39,533 nucleotides of DNA from Kofleriaceae bacterium (lineage in GTDB: Bacteria; Myxococcota_A; Polyangia; Haliangiales; Haliangiaceae): assembly GCA_024762925.1 (NCBI GenBank), contig JANTGM010000052.1, positions 1 through 39,533 on the forward strand, given 5' to 3'. Position numbers and translations under genes: made by a program. This document shows, piece after piece, positions 13,751-38,862 of the stretch. The notes beneath the pieces are model-generated. The model ran no database searches. It saw only the letters and a program-made list of their open reading frames with translations, and was not told the DNA's origin. Every line of letters starts with the position of its first letter. Position 1 is the first letter of the stretch.

Positions 13751-15376
13751 ATGCGTCAAGCTATGCCAAGTCAACCCCAGCCATCTGAGCGACAGAATCG
13801 ACTTCTGCCCGACTCTGAACGGTGGCCACTTGACGAGGGCAAACCCGTCATTGAACTCATCGATGTGCACAAGGCTTTCGGGGCGAACAAAGTGCTCAAT
13901 GGGCTGAGCTTGCGGATCGTGCCAGGCAAGACAACCGTCATCGTCGGGCGAAGTGGTTCCGGGAAGTCGGTGTTGTTGAAGCTGATGATGGGCCTATTGC
14001 GTCCAGATTCGGGACAGGTCATCATGTTTGGCCGAGACGTCACCGAAGTCTCGGCCATGGAGCTAATCACGCTACGGAAGCGCATGAGCATGCTCTTCCA
14101 AAACTACGCACTCCTCGATTCGCTCTCGGTGGAAGACAACATTGGCTTCACGCTGCTTGAGAATACGCGGATGCCTCGCAAGGAGGTCATGGGGCTGGTG
14201 GAGGAGCTTCTCGAGCTTTTAGGGCTTGCGGGCTTTGGAGCTGCATTGCCGGCAGAACTCTCCGGTGGCATGCGCAAGCGAGTGAGCTTGGCAAGAGCGC
14301 TCATTGCAAACCCCGAGGTTGTGCTCTTCGACGAGCCCACAACTGGTCTGGATCCAATCATGATCGAGAAGGTCGACGAGATGATACTGCTCGCAAAGAA
14401 GAGCTACCAAATCACATCGGCCATTGTCAGCCACGACATGGCAAGCACAAAGCGACTTGCCGATCGAGTTGCCTTCTTGCACGACGGTACGATTATTTCT
14501 GAGGGCACATATCAGGAGTTTGTCACCAGCCAGTTGCCGCCCATTGTGGCATTCCACGAGGGAGCACGGACCTCGCGTCTCACCCGAGATTCTGCCGGGG
14601 ACGTTGACACCCAACCGGAAGAAGATGTGACACCGCAAGAAACCGCCATCGTTGAGTTGGTTGACCTGCACAAGACCTTTGGCACCCATCAAGTGCTCAA
14701 GGGAGTCGATCTTAAGATCTATCCTGGAAAGATTACCGTGCTCATTGGAGGGAGTGGCTCGGGCAAGTCGGTAATCGTGAAGCACATCATGGGGCTCTTC
14801 AAGCCAACCTCGGGTGAGGTGCGCGTGTTTGGACAAGACATCGTCCCGCTAGGCGATCGAGCGCTGGATGAGATTCGTGGCCGATTTGGAATGCTGTTCC
14901 AGCACGCAGCCTTGCTCGATTGGCTCACAGTTGCAGGAAATGTCGCTTTTCCCCTCGTGGAACGCACCCAAATGCCCAGGAAGGAGATTCGTGATCGGGT
15001 TGATGACATGCTGCAACGTCTGCATATTGCTGAGTTGCGGGACCGCATGCCTGGGGAAATTTCTGAGGGGCAGAAGAAACGCGCAGGACTGGCACGTGCC
15101 CTGATTATGAGGCCCGAGATCATGATCTATGATGAGCCGACGACCGGCCAGGACCCACTTCGAACTCGGGATGTGGATGACATGATTCACCAGGTGCAGG
15201 AGGAGTTCGACATCACGAGCATCGTCATCAGTCACGATATGGCTTCAACATTTCGCGTCGCGGATACCGTTGCGCTACTTCACAACGGCGAGATTGCTGC
15301 GTATGGTTCTCCGGATGAAGTTCGCAACGCGCAAGACGACTACGTTCAGCGCTTCATCTACGCGGGCCAGGTCTAG
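13751..15376 (+). CDS. tandem ATPase of MlaF/Mkl type, two ABC domains in one chain
   Basis: 541 aa. Domain one (about 33-275) has Walker A GRSGSGKS (66-73), signature LSGGM (170-174), Walker B VLFDEP (191-196) and SHDMAST (227-233). Domain two (about 301-541) has GGSGSGKS (333-340), signature ISEGQ (437-441), IMIYDEP (457-463) and SHDMAST (494-500). A 25-residue acidic linker joins them. Both resemble MlaF, the ATPase of MCE-type phospholipid transport at the outer membrane. No MlaE permease, MlaD or MCE gene is adjacent, so the membrane partner must be elsewhere. The two signatures differ, so the halves may not be equivalent. Confidence 0.85.
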   Translation: MRQAMPSQPQPSERQNRLLPDSERWPLDEGKPVIELIDVHKAFGANKVLNGLSLRIVPGKTTVIVGRSGSGKSVLLKLMMGLLRPDSGQVIMFGRDVTEVSAMELITLRKRMSMLFQNYALLDSLSVEDNIGFTLLENTRMPRKEVMGLVEELLELLGLAGFGAALPAELSGGMRKRVSLARALIANPEVVLFDEPTTGLDPIMIEKVDEMILLAKKSYQITSAIVSHDMASTKRLADRVAFLHDGTIISEGTYQEFVTSQLPPIVAFHEGARTSRLTRDSAGDVDTQPEEDVTPQETAIVELVDLHKTFGTHQVLKGVDLKIYPGKITVLIGGSGSGKSVIVKHIMGLFKPTSGEVRVFGQDIVPLGDRALDEIRGRFGMLFQHAALLDWLTVAGNVAFPLVERTQMPRKEIRDRVDDMLQRLHIAELRDRMPGEISEGQKKRAGLARALIMRPEIMIYDEPTTGQDPLRTRDVDDMIHQVQEEFDITSIVISHDMASTFRVADTVALLHNGEIAAYGSPDEVRNAQDDYVQRFIYAGQV

Positions 15377-25472: not shown

Positions 25473-26285
25473 TTACTGTTGGTGTCCGCCGCCCTGATTG
25501 GGGTCGTAGCCACCTTGCTGCGGATAGCCCTGCTGTCCTTGCTGCGGATAGCCCTGCTGTCCCTGCTGCGGATAGCCCTGCTGTCCTTGCTGCGGATAGC
25601 CTTGCTGTCCCTGCTGCGGATAGCCTTGCTGTCCCTGCTGCGGATAGCCCTGCTGTCCTTGCGGCGGATAGCCCTGCTGTCCTTGCTGCGGATAGCCCTG
25701 CTGTCCCTGCTGCGGATAGCCTTGCTGTCCTTGCTGCGGATAGCCCTGCTGTCCTTGCTGCGGATAGCCTTGCTGTCCTTGCTGCGGATAGCCTTGCTGT
25801 CCTTGCTGCGGATAGCCCTGCTGATATCCGCCCTCCGCTCCAGATTGTTGTCCTTCTGCCGCTTCATCTTCGTCGTCTTTTCCGAAGATCATCAGAAGCA
25901 CAAAGCCAACTGCTAGTACGACGAGCACAATGAGCCCCGGAGGAATGGTCATCGTGAACGGCGCGTCCATGCTGCCTGCTGCGATTTCCTTGAGCTTCTC
26001 CTCTTCAACCTCGACGTAAGCATCATCGGTGTACAAGACGTAGCGCTTGTCCCACCGCCAGATATCCATCCAGAACAAACCAAAGCGGCTGTACACCATG
26101 CCGATCTTCACACCAGGTTCAGTCTCAGCCTCAACTTCCGCTCGCACCTCCTCCTTGATGTCAGAGAGGTGAACGATGTCCTCGCCGGTGTTGTAAATCG
26201 CCACGCCGCGCTTAGCGTGCGCGGTACCTGCGCTCATGCAGAGAATGGCGACCAAAACAAAGCTGGCCCAAAAACTTGTCTTCAT
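25473..26285 (-). CDS. membrane protein with 13 GYPQQGQQ repeats
   Basis: 270 aa from ATG 26285. A Sec signal peptide ([19 protein letters not shown]) is followed by an extracytoplasmic domain of about 100 residues ([33 protein letters not shown]), one transmembrane helix ([19 protein letters not shown]), an acidic stop-transfer ([10 protein letters not shown]), and a tail made of 13 octapeptides GYPQQGQQ ending [12 protein letters not shown]. The predicted topology puts the Gln/Tyr/Gly tail in the cytoplasm, where such sequences often self-associate. Function unknown. TACCGT lies six bases before the start, and a strong terminator follows. Confidence 0.8.
25509..25817 (-). repeat. 24-bp tandem repeat, 13 copies, coding
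   Basis: The unit encodes GYPQQGQQ. Copies differ mainly at third positions (ctt/ccc, cct/ctt), and one copy has GYPPQGQQ through a CAG to CCG change. The last unit is partial (GYPQQGG). The silent changes show selection on the peptide. Confidence 0.95.
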
Positions 26286-26291
26286 CTTGGT

Positions 26292-26297
26292 ACGGTA
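26292..26297 (-). promoter_or_regulatory. putative -10 (TACCGT) for the repeat-protein gene
   Basis: TACCGT on the minus strand ends six bases before ATG 26285, within a GGTAC-rich palindrome. Confidence 0.35.
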
Positions 26298-26341
26298 CCA
26301 TAGGCTATTGCTCCCACCGGCTCCCGGCTTGGCTATTCCAG

Positions 26342-27538
26342 TTAGAAAATCTCGGGGCACCACGGAACACGAGCGCTGCCAAAGAGTCCATCAGCGCGCT
26401 CGATCATTTCGCGCGAGCCCGCAATCCTTCCAACTGCAGCCAGTTCTGATGGGAGGAATGCGCCAAGGTACAAGGAGGCTAGGTCCTGCCTTGCCAGTAA
26501 AATCCCTACCTGGCCGTGGTCTTCCTCGCATGACGCGCGACCGTTGGCGACCTGCAAATTGTAGGACTGATCTTCTCCTTGGAGCGAGATCGGAAGCTCT
26601 CCATCCTTTGCATACGAGCGCGACTCCAAGGCTGTCGGAATATCACGCAGCCGCAGCCAGAGCGTATCCGTTCGCTGTCTTCGCACACGTCGCCTGTCTT
26701 CGACGAGCCAGGGCAGGGCACAGTCGAGCGGAGCGTTCCAGTACGTGAGGTGTGGATAGAGGTCGAGGTGTGAGATGAAACGCCACAAGGTCTGCTCCGC
26801 CTTAAGATCTGCACCAAGGAGTTCGACAATCGACACCGAACCATCGAGGAGCCCGCGATCGTTTGCGGCAGTTTGGCGGTACAGAACATAGCCAACCATC
26901 GCGCCATCACGAACGGCTGTGGCGATTCGCAAAGTAGAACCTGAGCCGCGCCGGCCTGGACCATCATAGAGTGTGCGGTGTTGCCACCAAACTGCGCTGC
27001 GAGTGAAGTGCCCTGGGCGTGGCACAGAATTGTAGAGAGTCGGCAACTTCTCAAGGGCACGCTCCTTGTCGAGGAAGCGAATGCTGTCAGGCTCGAAGTC
27101 AGCTGCAAAACGCAGTGTTCTCGCATCGGTCTCCAGATAGTCCGATTCAGCAGCGACGCCGTAGCCAAAGCGCCCGTAGATCGAACTCTCCGAAGCCCAC
27201 AAACCACTTATGGCTTCGCTGTGCACAATCATGTCCTCTTCGTGCTTGGTCATGAGCGCACGCAAGACGCCTGTACGTCGATGACTAGGAAGAACACTCA
27301 CAAAGGTTAGGCCCGCCATCGGGACCGTACTGCCACCCGGAAGAGTGAGCTTCTGCTCAAAGGCACCGGCGGTTCCGACAAGCGCTTGGTCGTCAAACGC
27401 GCCATAGGCCCGTTTCACCCGCAAGACCTTGGCAAGTCTCGACTCTCCATCGCTCACGTCGCCGCCAAACGTCTGCATGGCGACCGCTTCATATCGCTCA
27501 AACTCAGCGCCTGTGATTGCGCGAACAGTGATCGGCAT
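26342..27538 (-). CDS. Eis-like GNAT acetyltransferase
   Basis: 398 aa, the usual length for the Eis family. The N-terminal GNAT domain has [18 protein letters not shown] with the acetyl-CoA pyrophosphate loop RRTGVL (about 87-92), preceded by MAGLTFVS. A second GNAT-like domain (about 190-290) and an SCP2-like C-terminal domain ending in a free carboxylate WCPEIF complete the architecture. Eis enzymes acetylate lysines or aminoglycosides at several amines. Substrate here is unknown. It is the upstream neighbour of the repeat-protein gene, 56 bases away. Confidence 0.85.
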
Positions 27539-28278: not shown

Positions 28279-28311
28279 TTGCACTCTGGCTGTGCAATAA
28301 TGCACCGTGCA
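28279..28311 (+). promoter_or_regulatory. nested GTGCA palindromes, candidate LysR operator
   Basis: TTGCAC (28279-28284) and GTGCAA (28292-28297) form an inverted repeat with a 7-bp spacer, and TGCAC-C-GTGCA (28301-28311) overlaps the GTG start. AATAAT at 28296-28301 lies within it, five bases from the start codon. Binding here would give autoregulation. Confidence 0.6.
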
Positions 28312-29185
28312 ATGGGATGACCTTCGGTTCGCTTTAGCTCTTGAGCGCAATAAGACACTTAGCTCCGCCGCGAAATCGCTTGGCGTCAACCACACCACCG
28401 TCGCTCGCCGAATCGAGGCACTTGAGGAAGGACTCGGCACCCGCCTCTTCGACAAGACGCCCACAGGCTACGTTCCTACACAGGAGGGGGAGGACATTCT
28501 ATTGGTCGCTGCCAAGGTGGAGAATGAGCTACTCAACCTTGATCGGCAGGTCTTTGGTCGCGATGCCAGCCTCCGCGGAAGTCTTCGAGTCACCACGCTC
28601 GACGTCTTTGCCATCCAGCACAGCTCCATGTTCTCGAGTTTTTGTGAGCGCTACCCTGAAGTCACACTGGAGACGGTCTTGAGCAACACGCCCCAAAGTC
28701 TCACCAAACGCGAGGCGGACATCGCGCTTCGCGCTACCAATGCGCCACCGCCAAACCTCGTTGGCAAGAAGTTGGGGCGCTTGGAGTTTGCGCTCTACGG
28801 AGCCAAGCGCTTGGTGGAGAGTCGCGAGGATCCGCAAGATCTCGAGAGCTATCCATGGCTTGCCTGGGACGAGAAGCTCGGTGCTCGAGTGACTGAAGCC
28901 TGGATGAAAAAGAACGTACCGAAGGCTCATGTTGCGGCACGGCTCGACTCAGGGGTAACCAATCTGTGTTTCTTGCGCGCTGGTGTGGGCATCGCCTTTG
29001 CTCCTTGTCTTTGGGCGGATGAGCTTGCAGAGGTTGTGCGTCTAGCCGAGCCACTGCCAGATTTTGGTGTCGACATTTGGCTACTGACACATCCCGATCT
29101 TCGCCACACTGCAAGGGTCCGCGCCTTCATGGAACACGTCCTAGAGAACTTCAAATTCGGCGCCACAGCTGGAGCCTGTAGTTAG
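28307..29185 (+). CDS. LysR-family transcriptional regulator
   Basis: 292 aa with a GTG start. The winged helix (about 1-60) shows LRFALALERNKTLSSAAKS and LGVNHTTVARRIEALEEGLG, then GTRLFDKTPTGYVPTQEG. The periplasmic-binding-protein-like effector domain follows (SLRVTTLDVFAIQHSSMF, ADIALRATNAPPPNLVGK, LRAGVGIAFAP). Effector unknown. It is 58 bases upstream of the LtrA-KirBac gene on the same strand and divergent from the small lipoprotein, so either may be its target. Confidence 0.9.
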   Translation: MQWDDLRFALALERNKTLSSAAKSLGVNHTTVARRIEALEEGLGTRLFDKTPTGYVPTQEGEDILLVAAKVENELLNLDRQVFGRDASLRGSLRVTTLDVFAIQHSSMFSSFCERYPEVTLETVLSNTPQSLTKREADIALRATNAPPPNLVGKKLGRLEFALYGAKRLVESREDPQDLESYPWLAWDEKLGARVTEAWMKKNVPKAHVAARLDSGVTNLCFLRAGVGIAFAPCLWADELAEVVRLAEPLPDFGVDIWLLTHPDLRHTARVRAFMEHVLENFKFGATAGACS

Positions 29186-29243: not shown

Positions 29244-31346
29244 GTGCAAAGCCGCTGGTACCACGTACCCCGAATTCATAGCCCAGGGCATGGGCAGGAG
29301 AAGAAGGTTGGATGGCTTGAGCTGTTCTACGACCTTATCTACGTAGCCACCTTCATCCAGCTTGGGAATGCGCTGAGCTACAACCTGAGTATCCAGGGCA
29401 CTCTAGCGTTTGCAGGTCTGTTGGTCCCTCTGTGGCTCACATGGACAGCGTTTACCTTCTACGCCAATCGATTCGATGTCGACGACCTAACGCATCGGGC
29501 GCTCACCTTTGTTCAGATGTTTGCCATCGGCGGCTTGGCGGTCTTGGTTAAAGACGTTTTCCGAGGCGAGACCATGCGATTTGCTCTCGTCTATGCGGCG
29601 GTGCGTCTTGTCATCGTCTTGCTCTATGCGCGCACCTACTGGCAGCAAACAAAGGCCAGGGACATGACAGGCCGCTTTGCAGTGGGCTTTGCGCTTGGAG
29701 CGGCTCTCTGGGGCTTCTCTGCGTTTCTGGACGCGCCGTGGGTCTACGTGTGCTGGGGGCTGGCAGTAGCAATTGACCTAGGTCTTCCTCTGGGACGCGC
29801 AACTCGAAGTTTGACGGGCCGCTATCCACCAGATGCCGCCCATCTGTCGGAGCGCTACGGCTTGCTTACACTCATCGTTTTGGGGGAGTCGTTCGTGAAG
29901 GTCTTGACCAGCGTCTCCGAAGTTGGCGGCACGATGGAACACGCGGTTACCGGAGCGATGGGGCTGTGCATCGTGTGCTCGCTGTGGTGGATCTATTTTG
30001 ACGATGTGGCCGGATCTCGAATCAAGGGCAGCTACCTCTCGGCAGTAGCTTGGGTCTACGCACACCTGCCTCTAACGATTGCCATTGTCGCAACTGGAGT
30101 CTCAATCAAGAAGGCTGTGTTCTTTGAGCTGACGGAAATTGCTCCAGAAGGGTACCGCTGGCTGCTCTGTTCAAGTCTCGCCCTGGTGCTCTTTTCGGTG
30201 GCCGCCATCGATGCTGTCACCGAAAGGCGGCAGTCAGAGTTCGGCGATCGCTATCGAACCGCCACACGCTTTGCCTCGGCGCTTTTTGTGCTCTTGCTCG
30301 CCGCGGCGGGGGGCGCTTTGCCTGCATGGGCGTTCTTTGGCCTGGTCGCCTTGTGTTGCCTCGTGCAGGTTCTCCTCGACTTGTTGATGGCTCCTCTGGC
30401 CGCGGATCACGAAATGCTTCATGAAGGCATGCAAGATGCGTTTGGCGTGGGGGAGGACATGGAGGACACTAGCGAAGAAGCAAGCCAACCACCCAAACGT
30501 CATGAGTTGCGGGCAGCGGTTCGCAAAGGCACACCATCAGAACTTCGGCGGGACCTCTATTTTCATCTGATGGATGGTTCCTGGTGGCTGATCTTCGGGA
30601 CGCTGCTTTTCCTTTTCTTCTTGTTCAACGGCATCTTCGCGGGGCTGTATCTGCTTGAGCCCAACTCCATTACGGGTGGCGATTCTGGTTCGCTATCCAG
30701 CGCATTCGCGTTCAGCGTGCAGACCATGACAACAATTGGCTATGGGACGCTCAGCCCCGGGACCGACTACGGTCACGTGCTGGTCACATGTGAGGCCATC
30801 GTTGGCATTCTTGGAACGGCGGTTGCGACAGGTCTCATGTTCGCAAAGGCGTCCAGACCTAGAACCAGTACACTCTTCTCGAAACCGGTGATTGTTACCA
30901 CGTTTCACGGCAAGCCCACGCTCATGTTTCGTGTGGGCAACGCGCGGGGCAACGAGATCGTTGAGGCGAGCATTAGCGTGTCAGCACTAATAGACGAAGT
31001 GAGCCCAGAGGGGCACAGCCTCAGGCGATTGCGAGACATCAAGCTCAAGCGAGCGACCTCACCGCTTTTTGTACTGACCTGGCAGGTACTGCACGTGCTT
31101 GACGAAACGTCACCGCTCTTTGGCCTCTCCGAAGAAACCCTAGAAGAGCGCTTGAGTCTCATGATCGTGAGCATGACGGGGCACGACGCCACCTATGGGC
31201 AGACGGTCCACGGACGCACGATCTACTATCCCGAAGCCTTCCGTTTTAATCATCGCTTTGAGGACGTGCTCTCCACTCTTGAGGATGGTCGTCTAATGGT
31301 CGACTACGACAGATTTCACAAGACGATCGCTGAATCGTCATCGTAA
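29244..31346 (+). CDS. LtrA domain fused to a KirBac-type potassium channel
   Basis: 700 aa with a GTG start. Residues about 18-395 form a multi-helix membrane domain starting KKVGWLELFYDLIYVATFI, the hallmark of LtrA (low temperature requirement A, function unknown), with LIVLGESFVKVL inside. An acidic linker (about 396-435) leads to a complete Kir module: slide helix RRDLYFHLMDGSW, outer helix (about 446-470), pore helix and selectivity filter TIGYG (497-501), inner helix (about 509-535), and the cytoplasmic immunoglobulin-like domain starting RPRTSTLFSKPVIVTTFHGK, with PTLMFRVGNARGNEIVEA. The channel should conduct K+. LtrA could be a sensor or regulator. The fusion has one open frame with no internal stop. 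Confidence 0.9.
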   Translation: MQSRWYHVPRIHSPGHGQEKKVGWLELFYDLIYVATFIQLGNALSYNLSIQGTLAFAGLLVPLWLTWTAFTFYANRFDVDDLTHRALTFVQMFAIGGLAVLVKDVFRGETMRFALVYAAVRLVIVLLYARTYWQQTKARDMTGRFAVGFALGAALWGFSAFLDAPWVYVCWGLAVAIDLGLPLGRATRSLTGRYPPDAAHLSERYGLLTLIVLGESFVKVLTSVSEVGGTMEHAVTGAMGLCIVCSLWWIYFDDVAGSRIKGSYLSAVAWVYAHLPLTIAIVATGVSIKKAVFFELTEIAPEGYRWLLCSSLALVLFSVAAIDAVTERRQSEFGDRYRTATRFASALFVLLLAAAGGALPAWAFFGLVALCCLVQVLLDLLMAPLAADHEMLHEGMQDAFGVGEDMEDTSEEASQPPKRHELRAAVRKGTPSELRRDLYFHLMDGSWWLIFGTLLFLFFLFNGIFAGLYLLEPNSITGGDSGSLSSAFAFSVQTMTTIGYGTLSPGTDYGHVLVTCEAIVGILGTAVATGLMFAKASRPRTSTLFSKPVIVTTFHGKPTLMFRVGNARGNEIVEASISVSALIDEVSPEGHSLRRLRDIKLKRATSPLFVLTWQVLHVLDETSPLFGLSEETLEERLSLMIVSMTGHDATYGQTVHGRTIYYPEAFRFNHRFEDVLSTLEDGRLMVDYDRFHKTIAESSS

Positions 31347-33403: not shown

Positions 33404-33766
33404 AAGCACCTCTCTTCACAGCAGGGGCTGCGAGATGTTCTGAGAGGCGTGATGCAGGTGCAGGCCCGGGCGCTTGTAGCAACGTCGATGTTCAAGAGAT
33501 CAAGCTAATTGTAGCCATCCGCAACCAAGGTTGCGGGGACTACAATTCATCGCAATAGATCTGTGGTGCCACAATCGCCTAGATCCAGCTGGAAGTTCGA
33601 TGTGTGATGAGTTAGGCGATGTGCGCCTTGGTGGTGAAGCATTTGTGGGTGAGGGACCACATGCATGGGGGGGAAATCCCCGAATTTCTCCAAGCACATA
33701 GATCGCAAGGCCCAAATAGTGCGAAGCACACAAGCTTTGCAATCGCCTTCTGGCATCACACTTGCC
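33404..33766 (+). other. structured intergenic region
   Basis: No gene is evident. It carries a long hairpin at 33507-33547, a second 8-bp inverted repeat ATCGCCTA/TAGGCGAT (33574-33581 and 33613-33620) around the palindrome CCAGCTGG, and a GGGG/CCCC hairpin near 33667-33681. The density of inverted repeats suggests a structured RNA or an element remnant. Confidence 0.4.
33507..33547 (+). ncRNA. candidate structured RNA hairpin
   Basis: AATTGTAG (33507-33514) pairs with CTACAATT (33540-33547). Inside, CCGCAACC (33519-33526) pairs with GGTTGCGG (33529-33536), or its inner 7 bp close a CAAG tetraloop. Only CCAT/GGA remain unpaired. No T-run follows, so it is not a standard terminator. Function unknown. 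Confidence 0.35.
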
Positions 33767-33772
33767 TATATT
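33767..33772 (+). promoter_or_regulatory. putative -10 (TATATT) for the DUF1592 gene
   Basis: TATATT ends six bases before ATG 33779. It favours that start over the longer open frame. Confidence 0.45.
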
Positions 33773-33778
33773 CCTCGC

Positions 33779-35413
33779 ATGCGGGGAATCTCAAGAGCCA
33801 TGCAGCTCTCGCTGTTGGCGGGTAGCATTGCGTTTACAGCTGGCTGTGACGGCATCATCAACAACCAGGGTGATGGAGAGGACTTGGCGGAAGCACCAAG
33901 GTTCCCTCGCCTCACCAACGATCAGTGGCAGCAGACGGTAACCGATCTTCTGTACCTCGATGAGCCACTCGCCTTAACGGTTGCGCTACAAGCCGACCCA
34001 CCTTTGGGACGCTTCGACAACAACATCGCTCGGCTGGCGTTTAGTGCGGCTCACTGGCGCAGCTTTCAACGAGCAGCGGAAGAGGTCGCCTCGTTGGCTT
34101 CGCAGGATGAAGCCATCGTGCAAGCGCTTTCGCCGGCAGACCTCCCCTCGGAGCTTGCGGCTCAGGGAGAAGCCTTGGTTGAGACTCTTGGGCCTCGCGC
34201 GTACCGGCGACCGCTCAGCGCATCAGAGGTTGAGGCGTACCAAGCTGTATTCACCGATGGTGCGAACCACTATCCAGACCAACCTCCGTATGAGGCTGGA
34301 CTTCGGCTCGTTCTCGAGACCATGCTGCAATCCCCACACTTTCTATATCGCGTCGAGGACAGCACGTCTGACAGTGGCGCGGTTAAGCTCGATGGCTACG
34401 AAGTCGCCAATCGCCTCTCGTTTGCATTCTGGAACACCATGCCGAGCGATGAACTCTTCGCTGCTGCCAAGTCCGGGGAACTCGACAATGAGGCAGGCGT
34501 TCGCGAGTGGGCCGAAACCCTGTTTGATGACGACCGCACCAGCAAGCAGTTTCGCAGCTTTCACGTGCAGGCATTTGAGATGGCTGAGTACACCGACCTG
34601 GACAAGAACGAGGAACTCTTCCCGCAGTGGAATCGTGAAGTCGGCTCTGCCATGCTCGACGAATCTGCACGCTTCTTAGAAGGTGAGGTTTTCGGCGGGG
34701 GAGGAATACGAGAAATTCTTACCTCAAATCGAACGTACGTGAATGCCGACTTGGCTGCCCTCTACGGCCTCGAGGGTGACTACAACGAAGAGTTCGTTCC
34801 CGTTGACCTCAACCGCTCCGAGCGCTCTGGTATCCTCACTCGGCTAGGCTTCCTAACTCGAAACGCAACGCTCAGCCAAAGTGACCCGATTCATCGTGGC
34901 GTCTTTGTAAACCTCAACCTCTTGTGCCGGCCCTTGTCTGCGCCACCCGAGCTGCCGGATGTGCTCGACATGGTTGGAGATACCAATCGCGAGCGGGTTG
35001 ACTCTGTCACTGGAGTTGGAACTTGTGGAGAGGGCTGTCATGCAACTCTTATCAACCCGATTGGATTTTCCTTGGAGCACTACGATGCACTTGGCCAGTA
35101 CCGCGAGGAGGAGAGCGGTTTCCCTGTTGATGCGGCAGATGTCTACACATTCGCCTCGGGGGAGCAGCTCGTGTTCAATGACGCCCTTGAGCTGAGCGAA
35201 CAGCTTGCCGAGTCCACCGAAGTGCACGCTTGCTACATCCAGCAACTTCTTGAGTACCTTCTTGGACGAGACCTTGGCGCCGAGGACATGGCACTGGTGG
35301 AAGCGTATGCCGTTGAATCGGTGGAAACTGGGATCAGCGTTCGAGAAATCATCTTACGAGTGGTTGAGAGCCGCGCCTTCCGATACCGAGTTGCACAAGG
35401 AGGTGCACTATGA
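33779..35413 (+). CDS. lipoprotein of DUF1587/1595/1592/1588/1585 architecture
   Basis: 544 aa from ATG 33779. The signal peptide ends LLAGSIAFTAGC. Domains follow in the family order: DUF1587-like (PRLTNDQWQQTVTDLL), DUF1595 (LGPRAYRRPLSASEVEAY), DUF1592 (GYEVANRLSFAFWNTMPSDE), DUF1588 (RSGILTRLGFLTRNATLSQS) and DUF1585 (LLEYLLGRDL, VREIILRVVESRAFRYR). The DUF1588 haem-like motif is CGEGCH, that is CX3CH rather than the canonical CXXCH. Such proteins occur in Planctomycetes and Myxococcota beside DUF1552 partners and are thought to work in the envelope. The function is not established. The stop overlaps the next gene by 4 bases (ATGA). Confidence 0.85.
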   Translation: MRGISRAMQLSLLAGSIAFTAGCDGIINNQGDGEDLAEAPRFPRLTNDQWQQTVTDLLYLDEPLALTVALQADPPLGRFDNNIARLAFSAAHWRSFQRAAEEVASLASQDEAIVQALSPADLPSELAAQGEALVETLGPRAYRRPLSASEVEAYQAVFTDGANHYPDQPPYEAGLRLVLETMLQSPHFLYRVEDSTSDSGAVKLDGYEVANRLSFAFWNTMPSDELFAAAKSGELDNEAGVREWAETLFDDDRTSKQFRSFHVQAFEMAEYTDLDKNEELFPQWNREVGSAMLDESARFLEGEVFGGGGIREILTSNRTYVNADLAALYGLEGDYNEEFVPVDLNRSERSGILTRLGFLTRNATLSQSDPIHRGVFVNLNLLCRPLSAPPELPDVLDMVGDTNRERVDSVTGVGTCGEGCHATLINPIGFSLEHYDALGQYREEESGFPVDAADVYTFASGEQLVFNDALELSEQLAESTEVHACYIQQLLEYLLGRDLGAEDMALVEAYAVESVETGISVREIILRVVESRAFRYRVAQGGAL

Positions 35414-36804
35414 TTAGTCGACGTCGATTCCTTGCAGGACTTGGTGGCGCCATGGTCGCGCTGCCAGCATTGGAGAGCGTGAAATTTCTTGGAGGCAGTG
35501 CGAAAGCTGCCGGCAAAGAGAATCCCGTGTTCTCGGTATTTGTTCGCCAAGGCAACGGCTGCCAACAAGCAATCTCTGGGCGCGATGAGCCCGACAGATT
35601 CTGGCCAAGCGCGCTTGGAGCTCTCACACAAGACTCACTTGCAAACAGCGACTCGGATCGGGCGGTATCTGAATTGGCTGAGTATGCCGACTCCCTCTTG
35701 ATGGTTAGTGGCACGCGATATGCTTTTCCAGGCAATGGGTGCGGCCACACCGGTGGGCTCAATCAGTGTCTCACTGCCGCCAAAGTAACCGGCGAGGGAA
35801 AGGACTCTCTCGCCGATGGAGAGAGCATCGATTGGTTTCTATCCCAGCAAGTGAACCCCGCGGGAATTGAGCCTCTCAATCTCATGAGTGGCCCCCAAAG
35901 TGCGTACATTGCTCATGGACTCTCCTACAGTGGTCCGCAGCAGTTGAGGGGCGCATCCAACAATCCCTTTGCGGTCTATCAAGATCTGGTTGGGCTTGCT
36001 GGCGCGTCCCAAGAACTCTTAGAAGCGATTGCACTTCGACGACGCAGCGTCAACGACTTAGTGCGCGACGAGATGCAAGACCTTCTTGGCAAGAGCTATC
36101 TATCGGCGGCCGACAGGGAACGGCTGCAAACGCACTTTGATGTGATTCGTGACATCGAGGTGAATATGAGCTGCCAACTCACCGACAGCGAAGTCATGGC
36201 ACTCGAAGACATCTCGGGTGCTGCCGAAGACAACGGCAATCGAATCGCTGTTGCTGAGATGATGATGGATCTCATTGCGATGGCGTTCTCATGCGATGCC
36301 AATCGAGTTGCGACACTGCAGATCGGCACTGGCAACGACGGTACCCGCTACACGGTGAATGGCGAGCTTCAGAATACCTTCCACCGCATTTCCCACCGCA
36401 TTGATGGAGACGGCAGTGAGGGCGCTCCGATTCCCAACGCCGACCTTCTGCACCACGAAATCGATCGCATCTACGCACGCATGTTCAAACATCTGCTCGA
36501 CCGACTCTCGCTCTACACCAGTGCCAGTGGTGCTCCGCTCTTAGACGACACGATGGCTCTTTGGACGAATGACCTTGCGAGCGGGCCACCTCATTCGTAT
36601 CGCAATCTTCCCCAGATCGTGGCGGGGAAAGCTGGCGGTTTTCTCAAGACCGGCCAATACATTGACGCGGGAGACGTCACTCACAACAAGTTCCTCAATA
36701 CGCTGATCAGCGCTGCCGGCGTGTGCAAGGCGGACCAGAGCCCATACGATAGCTTTGGGGATGCGGAGCTGGAGGCCGGTGTCATTCCTGAGATGATCGC
36801 CTAG
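35410..36804 (+). CDS. Tat-exported DUF1552-family protein
   Basis: 464 aa. The twin-arginine signal is MISRRRFLAGLGGAMVALP. The body carries DUF1552 landmarks: SVFVRQGNGCQQ, SGTRYAFPGNGCGHTGGL, YIAHGLSYSGPQQLRG, EMMMDLIAMAFSCDANRVAT, TVNGELQNTFHRISHRIDG, DTMALWTNDLASGPPHSYRN and ending in GDAELEAGVIPEMIA. The fold resembles sulfatase or DUF1501-type proteins exported by Tat. It is cotranscribed and translationally coupled to the DUF1592 lipoprotein, and the pair probably acts as one exported complex. Confidence 0.88.
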   Translation: MISRRRFLAGLGGAMVALPALESVKFLGGSAKAAGKENPVFSVFVRQGNGCQQAISGRDEPDRFWPSALGALTQDSLANSDSDRAVSELAEYADSLLMVSGTRYAFPGNGCGHTGGLNQCLTAAKVTGEGKDSLADGESIDWFLSQQVNPAGIEPLNLMSGPQSAYIAHGLSYSGPQQLRGASNNPFAVYQDLVGLAGASQELLEAIALRRRSVNDLVRDEMQDLLGKSYLSAADRERLQTHFDVIRDIEVNMSCQLTDSEVMALEDISGAAEDNGNRIAVAEMMMDLIAMAFSCDANRVATLQIGTGNDGTRYTVNGELQNTFHRISHRIDGDGSEGAPIPNADLLHHEIDRIYARMFKHLLDRLSLYTSASGAPLLDDTMALWTNDLASGPPHSYRNLPQIVAGKAGGFLKTGQYIDAGDVTHNKFLNTLISAAGVCKADQSPYDSFGDAELEAGVIPEMIA

Positions 36805-36906: not shown

Positions 36907-38862
36907 ATGTCCCTTTTCTCCAGGAGCGCCAAGGCGATCGCATCGCGGATCGGTGGAGCGGCCGAGGCCTTACATCTGGCCGAGCGCAAAGCAAAGGCTG
37001 AGCGTTGGGTGGTTGCTCGCCGCAGGCTGCTGAGTGAGGTGGCGATTTGGTATCACGCGGACTATGCGGCACCTGGCTTGGCTCAGTCGGCCCGCATGCC
37101 GAATGTCGATCTGGAGCGCGGTCACAAAGTCGTTCATGCGCTGGAAGCCCTGGGGCTCTTGTGGGAGCGTGATGTTCGCAAGGGCGCTCCCATATCACTG
37201 CAGGCCCTGCTCAAAGCGCATAGCTACGAGTATTTGGAGTCGGTTACCGAGGCAGAGAAGCTTGCGCCGATTTTTGGGCTCGAGCCGCAAGACGTGCATG
37301 TCGATGTGCTTCTGAAGTCGCAGCGCAGGGCTGCAGGAGGCACCTTGCAGGCGAGTCGTTGGGCCCATGCGAGAAGAGGGCGTCGCGCATTTAATCTCGG
37401 TGGTGGATTTCATCATGCCGAGCCTGAGCGCGGAGCGGGGTTTTGCGTTTACAACGACATCGCCGCAAGCATCTTGAGCCTCCGTGCGAGTGGATTTCGA
37501 GAGCCCTGCGCAATCGTCGATCTGGACTTTCACCAGGGAAACGGCAACAGCATCGCATTCGCCGAGGACGCCACCGTGTTGACCTACTCGCTGCACGGCG
37601 CTGTTTGGAGCCATCTTGAGGCAGTGGCAGATGTCTCGATCACACTTCCTACCGGCACACTGGACGAAGCCTATCTGACCGAACTCCGGCGCACGCTTCC
37701 ACCGCTTCTTAGGGCACATCGTCCTCAACTCATCTACTACGTTGCGGGTACCGATGTACTCGCCACAGATGCCTTGGGAGACTTCTCCCTGAGCCAGCAA
37801 GGCGTCTTCGAGCGAGACAAGTTTGTGCTGGAACTTGCCGACGCACTTGAGGCGTCTACGGTGATTACCCTCGCAGGCGGCTACTCCCAGGACTCGTGGA
37901 GGTCAGCAGCGCGCATGGTCTACTGGGCCCTCACCGGTAGCAACAATCCACTGCCCCAAAACGACGACGACATTCGACAGGCCTTCGGTCACATAGCGAG
38001 CGGACTCGATCCATATGAGCTGCAGTTTGAAGACGATGAGGCGTTTCAAATCACCGAGGCCGATTTGATGGGTGAGCTTGAAGGCGTTCCAACGGCCAAT
38101 CGAATCCTCGGCTACTACTCGGTGCACGGGGTTGAGCTTGCATTCGAGCGCTACGGATTTCTGGATGCCCTTAGGAAACGCGGGTTTCGCGACTTGCGGT
38201 TTCAGGTTGATCCCCGTAACCCGGATCGGCAGCGAATATCGATCTATGGGAGCGTGGATCACAAGATGTATCACCTCTTGATGGAGCTCTTGGTGTCGCG
38301 CCGCAGCGTGGATTTTTTTGCGGTTGGGGCGGATGAGCCGTTGGACATGCTGTCAATTGAGTGGCTCTTGCTGCAAGACCCAACTCGGAACTTTACTGAG
38401 TCGCGACCGAGACTCCCCGGGCAAGAATACCCAGGTTTGGGACTTGTGCGCGAGCTCATGGAGATGCTCTACCAGGCCTGTATTCGCATCAAGCTCGATG
38501 GAATCATTCTGCATCCATCGCGGTTTCATATTGCTGCCGTTGCTGCTGGGCAGGGCGTATTCCTAGACCCAGCAATCGAGGGGCGGTTTCGGGCGCTTTC
38601 CGAGGCTCTTGATTCGAGCGACCTCTCTTCGGTCTCCAGCTTGATAGAACGACAAATGGTGGTGCGCCGAGATGGACGCGTTTTTGCGTGGGAGGCAGAG
38701 GACTTTGTGGTCCCTGTGAGTACACGCTTGCGTGACTACCTTGGGTCTGCGTCATACCGAGATGCACAACGTGCCGCAAAAGATCAGGCTCTGGCCGATG
38801 GAATCTTTCGACGAGGTCCGAAGGGGGCGGAGAGAGCTTCGCGCCACCAACCACCGTCCTAA
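36907..38862 (+). CDS. class IV-like histone deacetylase homologue with long C-terminal extension
   Basis: 651 aa. The deacetylase core (about 45-345) holds GGGFHHAEPERGAG (catalytic His pair near 170), VDLDFHQGNGNS (zinc-ligand Asp and His near 205-209), AGTDVLATDALGDFSLS (third zinc-ligand Asp) and GGYSQDSW (catalytic Tyr near 326). DLDxHQGNG and GTDxLxxDxLG match class IV-type enzymes and related bacterial members. The last 300 residues form extra domains: about 380-495 (LGYYSVHGVELAFERYGFLD, ISIYGSVDHKMYHLLMELLV) and 495-625 (LVRELMEMLYQACIRIKLDG, HPSRFHIAAVAAGQG). I do not recognise them. All catalytic residues are present, so activity is likely. The substrate could be an acyl-lysine or small amide. 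Confidence 0.85.
   Translation: MSLFSRSAKAIASRIGGAAEALHLAERKAKAERWVVARRRLLSEVAIWYHADYAAPGLAQSARMPNVDLERGHKVVHALEALGLLWERDVRKGAPISLQALLKAHSYEYLESVTEAEKLAPIFGLEPQDVHVDVLLKSQRRAAGGTLQASRWAHARRGRRAFNLGGGFHHAEPERGAGFCVYNDIAASILSLRASGFREPCAIVDLDFHQGNGNSIAFAEDATVLTYSLHGAVWSHLEAVADVSITLPTGTLDEAYLTELRRTLPPLLRAHRPQLIYYVAGTDVLATDALGDFSLSQQGVFERDKFVLELADALEASTVITLAGGYSQDSWRSAARMVYWALTGSNNPLPQNDDDIRQAFGHIASGLDPYELQFEDDEAFQITEADLMGELEGVPTANRILGYYSVHGVELAFERYGFLDALRKRGFRDLRFQVDPRNPDRQRISIYGSVDHKMYHLLMELLVSRRSVDFFAVGADEPLDMLSIEWLLLQDPTRNFTESRPRLPGQEYPGLGLVRELMEMLYQACIRIKLDGIILHPSRFHIAAVAAGQGVFLDPAIEGRFRALSEALDSSDLSSVSSLIERQMVVRRDGRVFAWEAEDFVVPVSTRLRDYLGSASYRDAQRAAKDQALADGIFRRGPKGAERASRHQPPS

Follow-up and report, generated by a model that had tools for sequence, protein, structure and literature searches.

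The window, that is, the whole 39,533-nucleotide stretch of DNA analysed here, contains on its forward strand an ltrA-kir fusion gene whose product joins an LtrA-type membrane domain to an inward-rectifier K+ channel (Kir). The preliminary description had read this as a single continuous frame, and the analysis bears it out: the 700-residue open reading frame holds complete Pfam domains for both halves, together with the slide helix, the TIGYG filter and the inner helix of a full Kir channel. Four relatives share the position of the start codon (GTG, TTG, GTG and ATG). The features of the locus are as follows.

28307-29185, forward strand: LysR-family regulator, neighbour only (Pfam HTH_1 and LysR_substrate)
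29244-31346, forward strand: ltrA-kir fusion gene, 700 aa, GTG start, TAA stop (open reading frame; full-length relatives)
29244-29312, forward strand: cytoplasmic N-terminus, residues 1-23, with the fusion-specific SRWxHxPxxH motif (alignment of fused rows)
29304-30389, forward strand: LtrA domain, residues 21-382, 12 predicted helices as 6+6, predicted TMEM175 fold (Pfam, AlphaFold2, Foldseek)
29313-29381, forward strand: LtrA TM1 with WLELFYD (alignment; TMEM175 register from range ends)
30210-30248, forward strand: cytoplasmic loop TM10-11 with fusion-specific D323, T326, E327, R328 and D335 (alignment)
30390-30527, forward strand: variable linker, residues 383-428 (alignment, model)
30528-30578, forward strand: Kir N-terminus and slide helix, residues 429-445, with fusion-specific P431, R435 and G445 (alignment)
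30582-30650, forward strand: Kir outer helix, residues 447-469, with invariant W447 (alignment)
30693-30746, forward strand: Kir pore helix and selectivity filter T497-I-G-Y-G501 (alignment)
30765-30851, forward strand: Kir inner helix, residues 508-536, followed by conserved R538 (alignment)
30873-31343, forward strand: Kir cytoplasmic domain IRK_C, residues 544-700 (Pfam, KirBac fold match)

Pfam assigns residues 21-374 to LtrA (PF06772; E 3.5e-77, 260.5 bits, profile positions 1-353 of 356) and residues 544-695 to IRK_C (PF17655; E 1.2e-24, 87.4 bits), for which the bit cut-offs are 31.9 and 22.5, respectively; Ion_trans_2 (458-533, E 2.9e-9) and IRK (447-539, E 1.4e-7) are also matched. 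The fused copy is the only LtrA in the window genome. The linker between the two halves measures 36-53 residues in the fusion family and is predicted to be disordered, with pLDDT below 50 at residues 388-418.

The Kir part is a KirBac-type channel throughout. Its alignment with the solved KirBac1.1 is unbroken (E 2e-61; residues 422-694 on KirBac1.1 35-306), and KirBac3.1 also aligns end to end; chains of the latter are matched by the full-length predicted model, a single monomer, with a TM-score by target of ~0.83. Specifically, it shares with KirBac1.1 and KirBac3.1 the slide helix, the two-helix pore, the T-x-G-Y-G filter and the IRK_C domain, with ~36-40% identity over the Kir part, whereas the N-terminus of these two channels is a short cytoplasmic tail without a 12-helix module. 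The filter pattern T/S-I/V/L-G-Y/F-G is kept in all 46 of the 46 aligned fused proteins. Four fused channels (L047, L053, L069 and L070) have GFG in place of GYG, as TIGFG or TVGFG. A NirBac-type non-selective pore was considered and is ruled out by the canonical TIGYG here and by GYG or GFG in all aligned relatives. Residues D437 and R538, which are conserved in the fused proteins, correspond by alignment to D50 and R151 of KirBac1.1, a channel whose slide helix is a lipid-responsive gating element that responds to anionic lipid (PMC12599233).

A scan over 84,980 species genomes lists at least 47 fused-type loci; the other loci in the 80-locus list are stand-alone LtrA. Both domains lie in one open frame at 45 of the 47 listed fused-type loci, two of which (L044 and L067) run off the contig inside Kir, while the remaining two carry one frameshift (L075) or stop at the contig end (L077). 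Two further rows that appeared to be Kir-only or broken (L112 and L120) turned out to be contig-end or frameshift cases. Among the listed loci, the carriers are titled Myxococcota (Kofleriaceae, Polyangiaceae and Myxococcales), Deltaproteobacteria, Acidobacteriota/Holophagae or unplaced MAGs, and two more are titled Verrucomicrobia, a label taken from the MAG titles only. Two isolates also carry the fusion: Sulfidibacter corallicola M133, whose chromosome is complete, and Acanthopleuribacter pedis KCTC 12899; the latter has two different fused genes (L048 and L059). In two or more bacterial phyla, the fused gene is thus passed on as one unit. Copies were found neither among viruses in IMG/VR nor on plasmids at 80% coverage of the query, and BFVD gave no meaningful fold match.

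Nearer to the window, a full-length fusion is carried by 5 of 95 near genomes, in three genera of the window's family, and 31 of 379 genomes in a same-phylum sample give a full-length match, with about six more cut or partial. An LtrA-model search of 189 same-phylum genomes found LtrA in 23: 16 intact fusions, a frameshifted fusion (G263), a contig-end case (G232), a short fragment (G203) and four stand-alone proteins, which are distant (49-82 bits versus >420 with the fused-type profile). With 16 of the 23 being intact fusions, the fused form is thus the usual form of LtrA in the window's phylum. Many carriers are metagenome assemblies, but an assembly or frameshift artefact merging two adjacent genes, raised in the preliminary description as a way in which the fusion might fail, can be set aside as exceedingly improbable, since the same join recurs in independent genomes down to ~40% identity, in the same-phylum copies and in the two isolates, one of them with a complete chromosome, and the fusion has one ancestral origin in trees.

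In the Kir tree, from which L112 was excluded, a single clade (100/100) unites all 48 fused copies with the Kir-only L115; in the LtrA tree, one clade (100/100) comprises all fused copies together with the contig-end L077 and the LtrA-only L079. One fused clade in the tree of each half reflects a single, old fusion event. L115 and L079, both nested inside the fused clade, have apparently lost one half secondarily. Additionally, the identity distances of LtrA and Kir covary (Mantel r 0.62, 0/2000 permutations), and the fused copies share on average 47% identity in LtrA and 51% in Kir. As judged from these sequences, both halves are under constraint across deep divergence.

The fusion gene stands alone, with no conserved partner gene. 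The LysR gene that the preliminary description placed 58 bases upstream is indeed there, ending at 29185 and co-directional, but the link is not a conserved one, as the gene is absent in congeners and at other loci; LysR as an operon partner was rejected, given that it is not beside the fusion in either same-genus genome (L032 and L033). Across the 47 listed fused loci, no gene is common beside the fusion beyond scattered common domains. Elsewhere in the window, an adjacent gene pair at 33665-36804 (forward strand), lipoprotein-like and TAT-signal-like by eye, has counterparts beside the fused gene L074. The forward strand further carries a 541-residue frame at 13751-15376, apparently with two tandem MlaF-like ABC ATPase domains (by eye), and a 651-residue protein at 36907-38862, whose first half is histone-deacetylase-like (by eye) and whose second half spans ~300 residues; the reverse strand encodes, at 25473-26363, a small membrane protein whose C-terminal tail is a long QGYPQQGQ repeat.

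LtrA (PF06772) is a widespread orphan membrane family, linked to the growth of Listeria at low temperature and named for this cold-growth phenotype. TMEM175 is a human lysosomal K+/H+ channel of 2x6 helices, with a bacterial form of 1x6 helices, and has no P-loop channel attached to it; its hydrophobic gate is I46 in the human protein and L35 in MtTMEM175. We modelled the LtrA half with AlphaFold2 from 78 aligned LtrA domains, which yields 12 helices arranged as 6+6 with pLDDT 92.6. The best four PDB matches of this model are human TMEM175 (Foldseek; E 3e-4 to 2e-2, probability 1.00). In VIA-align, ten TMEM175 entries rank first, with Z values of 20.2-26.4 over 291-349 aligned residues, and the next, unrelated row has Z 9.3; as unrelated helical bundles may reach Z ~13 by this method, the TMEM175 match has a wide margin. 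The LtrA module is accordingly predicted by the model to have the TMEM175 fold with two six-helix repeats. Searches at the sequence level returned no counterpart: PF06736 (TMEM175) has no Pfam match in the fusion protein at E up to 1 and none in the window genome, the LtrA profile has no TMEM175 match in the PDB (hmmsearch), and either LtrA half compared with bacterial TMEM175 gives a probability <1% (hhalign, shallow profiles). Likewise, no internal LtrA repeat is detected by profile, and the 6+6 repeat is visible in the model only. In the open-access literature searched, no description of LtrA and TMEM175 together was found; the fold link may have been noted elsewhere, for example in subscription papers or database annotations (clans, TCDB).

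The aligned ranges end at residues 22-23 here with 33-34 in human TMEM175, and the register inferred from these ends puts W24-L-E-L-F28-Y-D30 on R35-M-L-S-F39-S-D41, the FSD motif of the human protein. TM1 begins with RLEAFSDG in bacterial TMEM175 and with WLELFYDL in the fusion. Within F28-Y29-D30, Phe is kept in 44/46 and Asp in 46/46 fused copies, and Tyr would occupy the position of the FSD serine in this register. W24, E26 and D30 are invariant in the 78 LtrA domains; W67, D80 and R85 complete the invariant residues of the first half, and H200, R204, W248, W249, Y251 and H274 are those of the second. In MtTMEM175, the FSD motif forms a network with Arg24, Trp74, His77 and Asn95 near the intracellular pore entrance, which holds helices 1-3 and joins the subunits, while Thr38 is the selectivity residue (PMC7176437). 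The invariant set of LtrA sits in places comparable to this network.

A distinct set of cytoplasmic motifs, together with the channel itself, sets the fused clade apart from stand-alone LtrA proteins of ~390-430 aa; both forms share the full-length PF06772 match and the common invariant residues. Positively charged residues (K+R) average ~12.6 in the inner loops versus 3.6 in the outer loops across the family, which places the N- and C-termini of LtrA in the cytoplasm, where the Kir N-terminus must be. In the N-terminal motif, R4 (46/46), W5 (43/46), H7 (45/46) and H12 (41/46) are conserved in fused rows, whereas stand-alone LtrA mostly differs at these positions. On the cytoplasmic side, 14/116 positions are fixed in fused LtrA only, versus 2/88 on the outer side (p 0.015, a value that ignores relatedness and comes from one of several comparisons), and the mirror set, fixed only in stand-alone LtrA, has no cytoplasmic bias (4 vs 6). 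The 14 cytoplasmic residues are R4, W5, H7, H12, D197, D254, A256, D323, T326, E327, R328, D335, A383 and P384; a second fused-specific cluster, with K219, lies in TM7 (residues 205-221). On the Kir side, the fused-specific residues are P431, R435 and G445 in the slide helix, and P473, A567, H647, Y651 and R683.

The relatives that carry one half only were compared at these positions. In L079 (6001-7158), an LtrA whose Kir half is gone, 6 of the 14 cytoplasmic residues are no longer kept, with D323, E327 and D335 among those changed, whereas the largest loss in a fused copy is 3 (mean 0.7), even on branches longer than that of L079. The same protein keeps 26/26 of the core LtrA residues checked and 11/13 of the other fused-specific residues. 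This decay suggests that the Kir half is contacted through the cytoplasmic face of LtrA, although it is seen in one lineage and any clade has its own fixed residues. L115 (1867-2856), the Kir without LtrA, keeps 7/8 fused-specific Kir residues, which indicates that these are not strictly tied to LtrA; its loss of LtrA may be recent.

The anatomy, distribution, single origin and predicted fold are established from the sequences and the model. The reading we favour, and to which we give an even chance, is that the protein is a KirBac-type K+ channel with a permanent N-terminal regulatory LtrA module of TMEM175 fold that gates the pore via the slide helix; contact, gating and stimulus are what we infer. 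The preliminary description had proposed that LtrA senses something and gates K+ flow, and the fusion-specific conservation of the cytoplasmic face and slide helix, as well as the decay in L079, is compatible with that proposal. Specifically, the LtrA module would lie beside the Kir pore with its N- and C-termini in the cytoplasm, and its cytoplasmic face, comprised of the SRWxH motif, loops 6-7, 8-9 and 10-11 and the end of TM12, would contact the Kir slide helix. An altered state of LtrA would be the trigger, most likely one that arises in its buried charge network (E26, D30, R76, D80, D81, R85, H200, E203, R204 and H274), for example by protonation; this would move the slide helix, and the K+ pore would open or close. 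A rigid pull through the linker is unlikely, since the linker is long, variable and predicted to be disordered. Four LtrA modules would be expected per Kir tetramer, and they could form two pairs, as the two-repeat TMEM175-type domain pairs as a dimer and Kir is a tetramer.

Since the LtrA half has the fold of an ion channel, it could also conduct ions itself. The LtrA module would then be a TMEM175-like pathway for K+ or H+, giving two conducting units per chain, for example as counter-ion paths, a reading that we regard as possible but less likely. The predicted fold match spans all 12 helices, the F-x-D signature falls at the start of TM1 in the inferred register, and the charge network is common to fused and stand-alone LtrA; moreover, TMEM175 is a K+ conductor that also passes protons when the pH is low (PMC10216561). 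However, by the same inferred register A35 would take the gate position and I38 that of the selectivity residue Thr38 in the fused copies, so the gate and threonine layer of TMEM175 would not be kept and conduction of the TMEM175 type is doubtful. K219 (43/46) lies in TM7, which corresponds to the second pore helix, and the searches gave neither a PF06736 match nor profile-profile similarity. An extended form, in which LtrA represents a bacterial branch of the TMEM175 fold that has gone unrecognised and the protein is a double channel that couples fluxes through a P-loop K+ pore and a K+/proton pathway, is unlikely.

Quite unlikely, in turn, is that LtrA only anchors, assembles or places Kir, with the fusion ensuring co-expression and LtrA having no part in gating. 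Such a role would suit a long disordered linker, KirBac channels fold without such a module in solved structures, and L115 has kept Kir after the loss of LtrA. Nevertheless, the core residues that are invariant in stand-alone LtrA stay fixed in the fused copies, which would be needless for an anchor, and the conserved residues that only the fused form has are concentrated on its cytoplasmic side.

For the regulatory module that we favour, it is conjecture that the buried charge network senses protons or ions, drawn from the chemistry of the network and the proton response of TMEM175 (PMC10216561). The proposed arrangement resembles that of the KATP channel (SUR TMD0-L0 with Kir6.2), in which a multi-helix membrane module and a linker also lie next to the Kir slide helix. 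SUR TMD0, by contrast, has another fold and belongs to a separate chain, and common descent is not suggested; in KATP channels, TMD0 and the linker act on Kir6.2.

No description of an LtrA-K+ channel fusion was found in the open-access literature searched, in keeping with the preliminary description, which did not recognise the architecture. Within that scope, neither of the two refutations named there, an artefact of assembly or a published fusion of this type, has come true. As an architecture, it is a variant of the KirBac channel new to that literature. The predicted TMEM175 fold, together with an old and stable fusion to a K+ channel, provides a concrete lead to a role of LtrA in ion physiology, and with K+ flux as the output of its partner, the role of LtrA is testable via a measurable channel activity. 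For Kir channels, this would be a novel type of regulator that is part of the same bacterial chain, and both KATP channels and the evolution of TMEM175 could be compared with the fusion as a natural counterpart.
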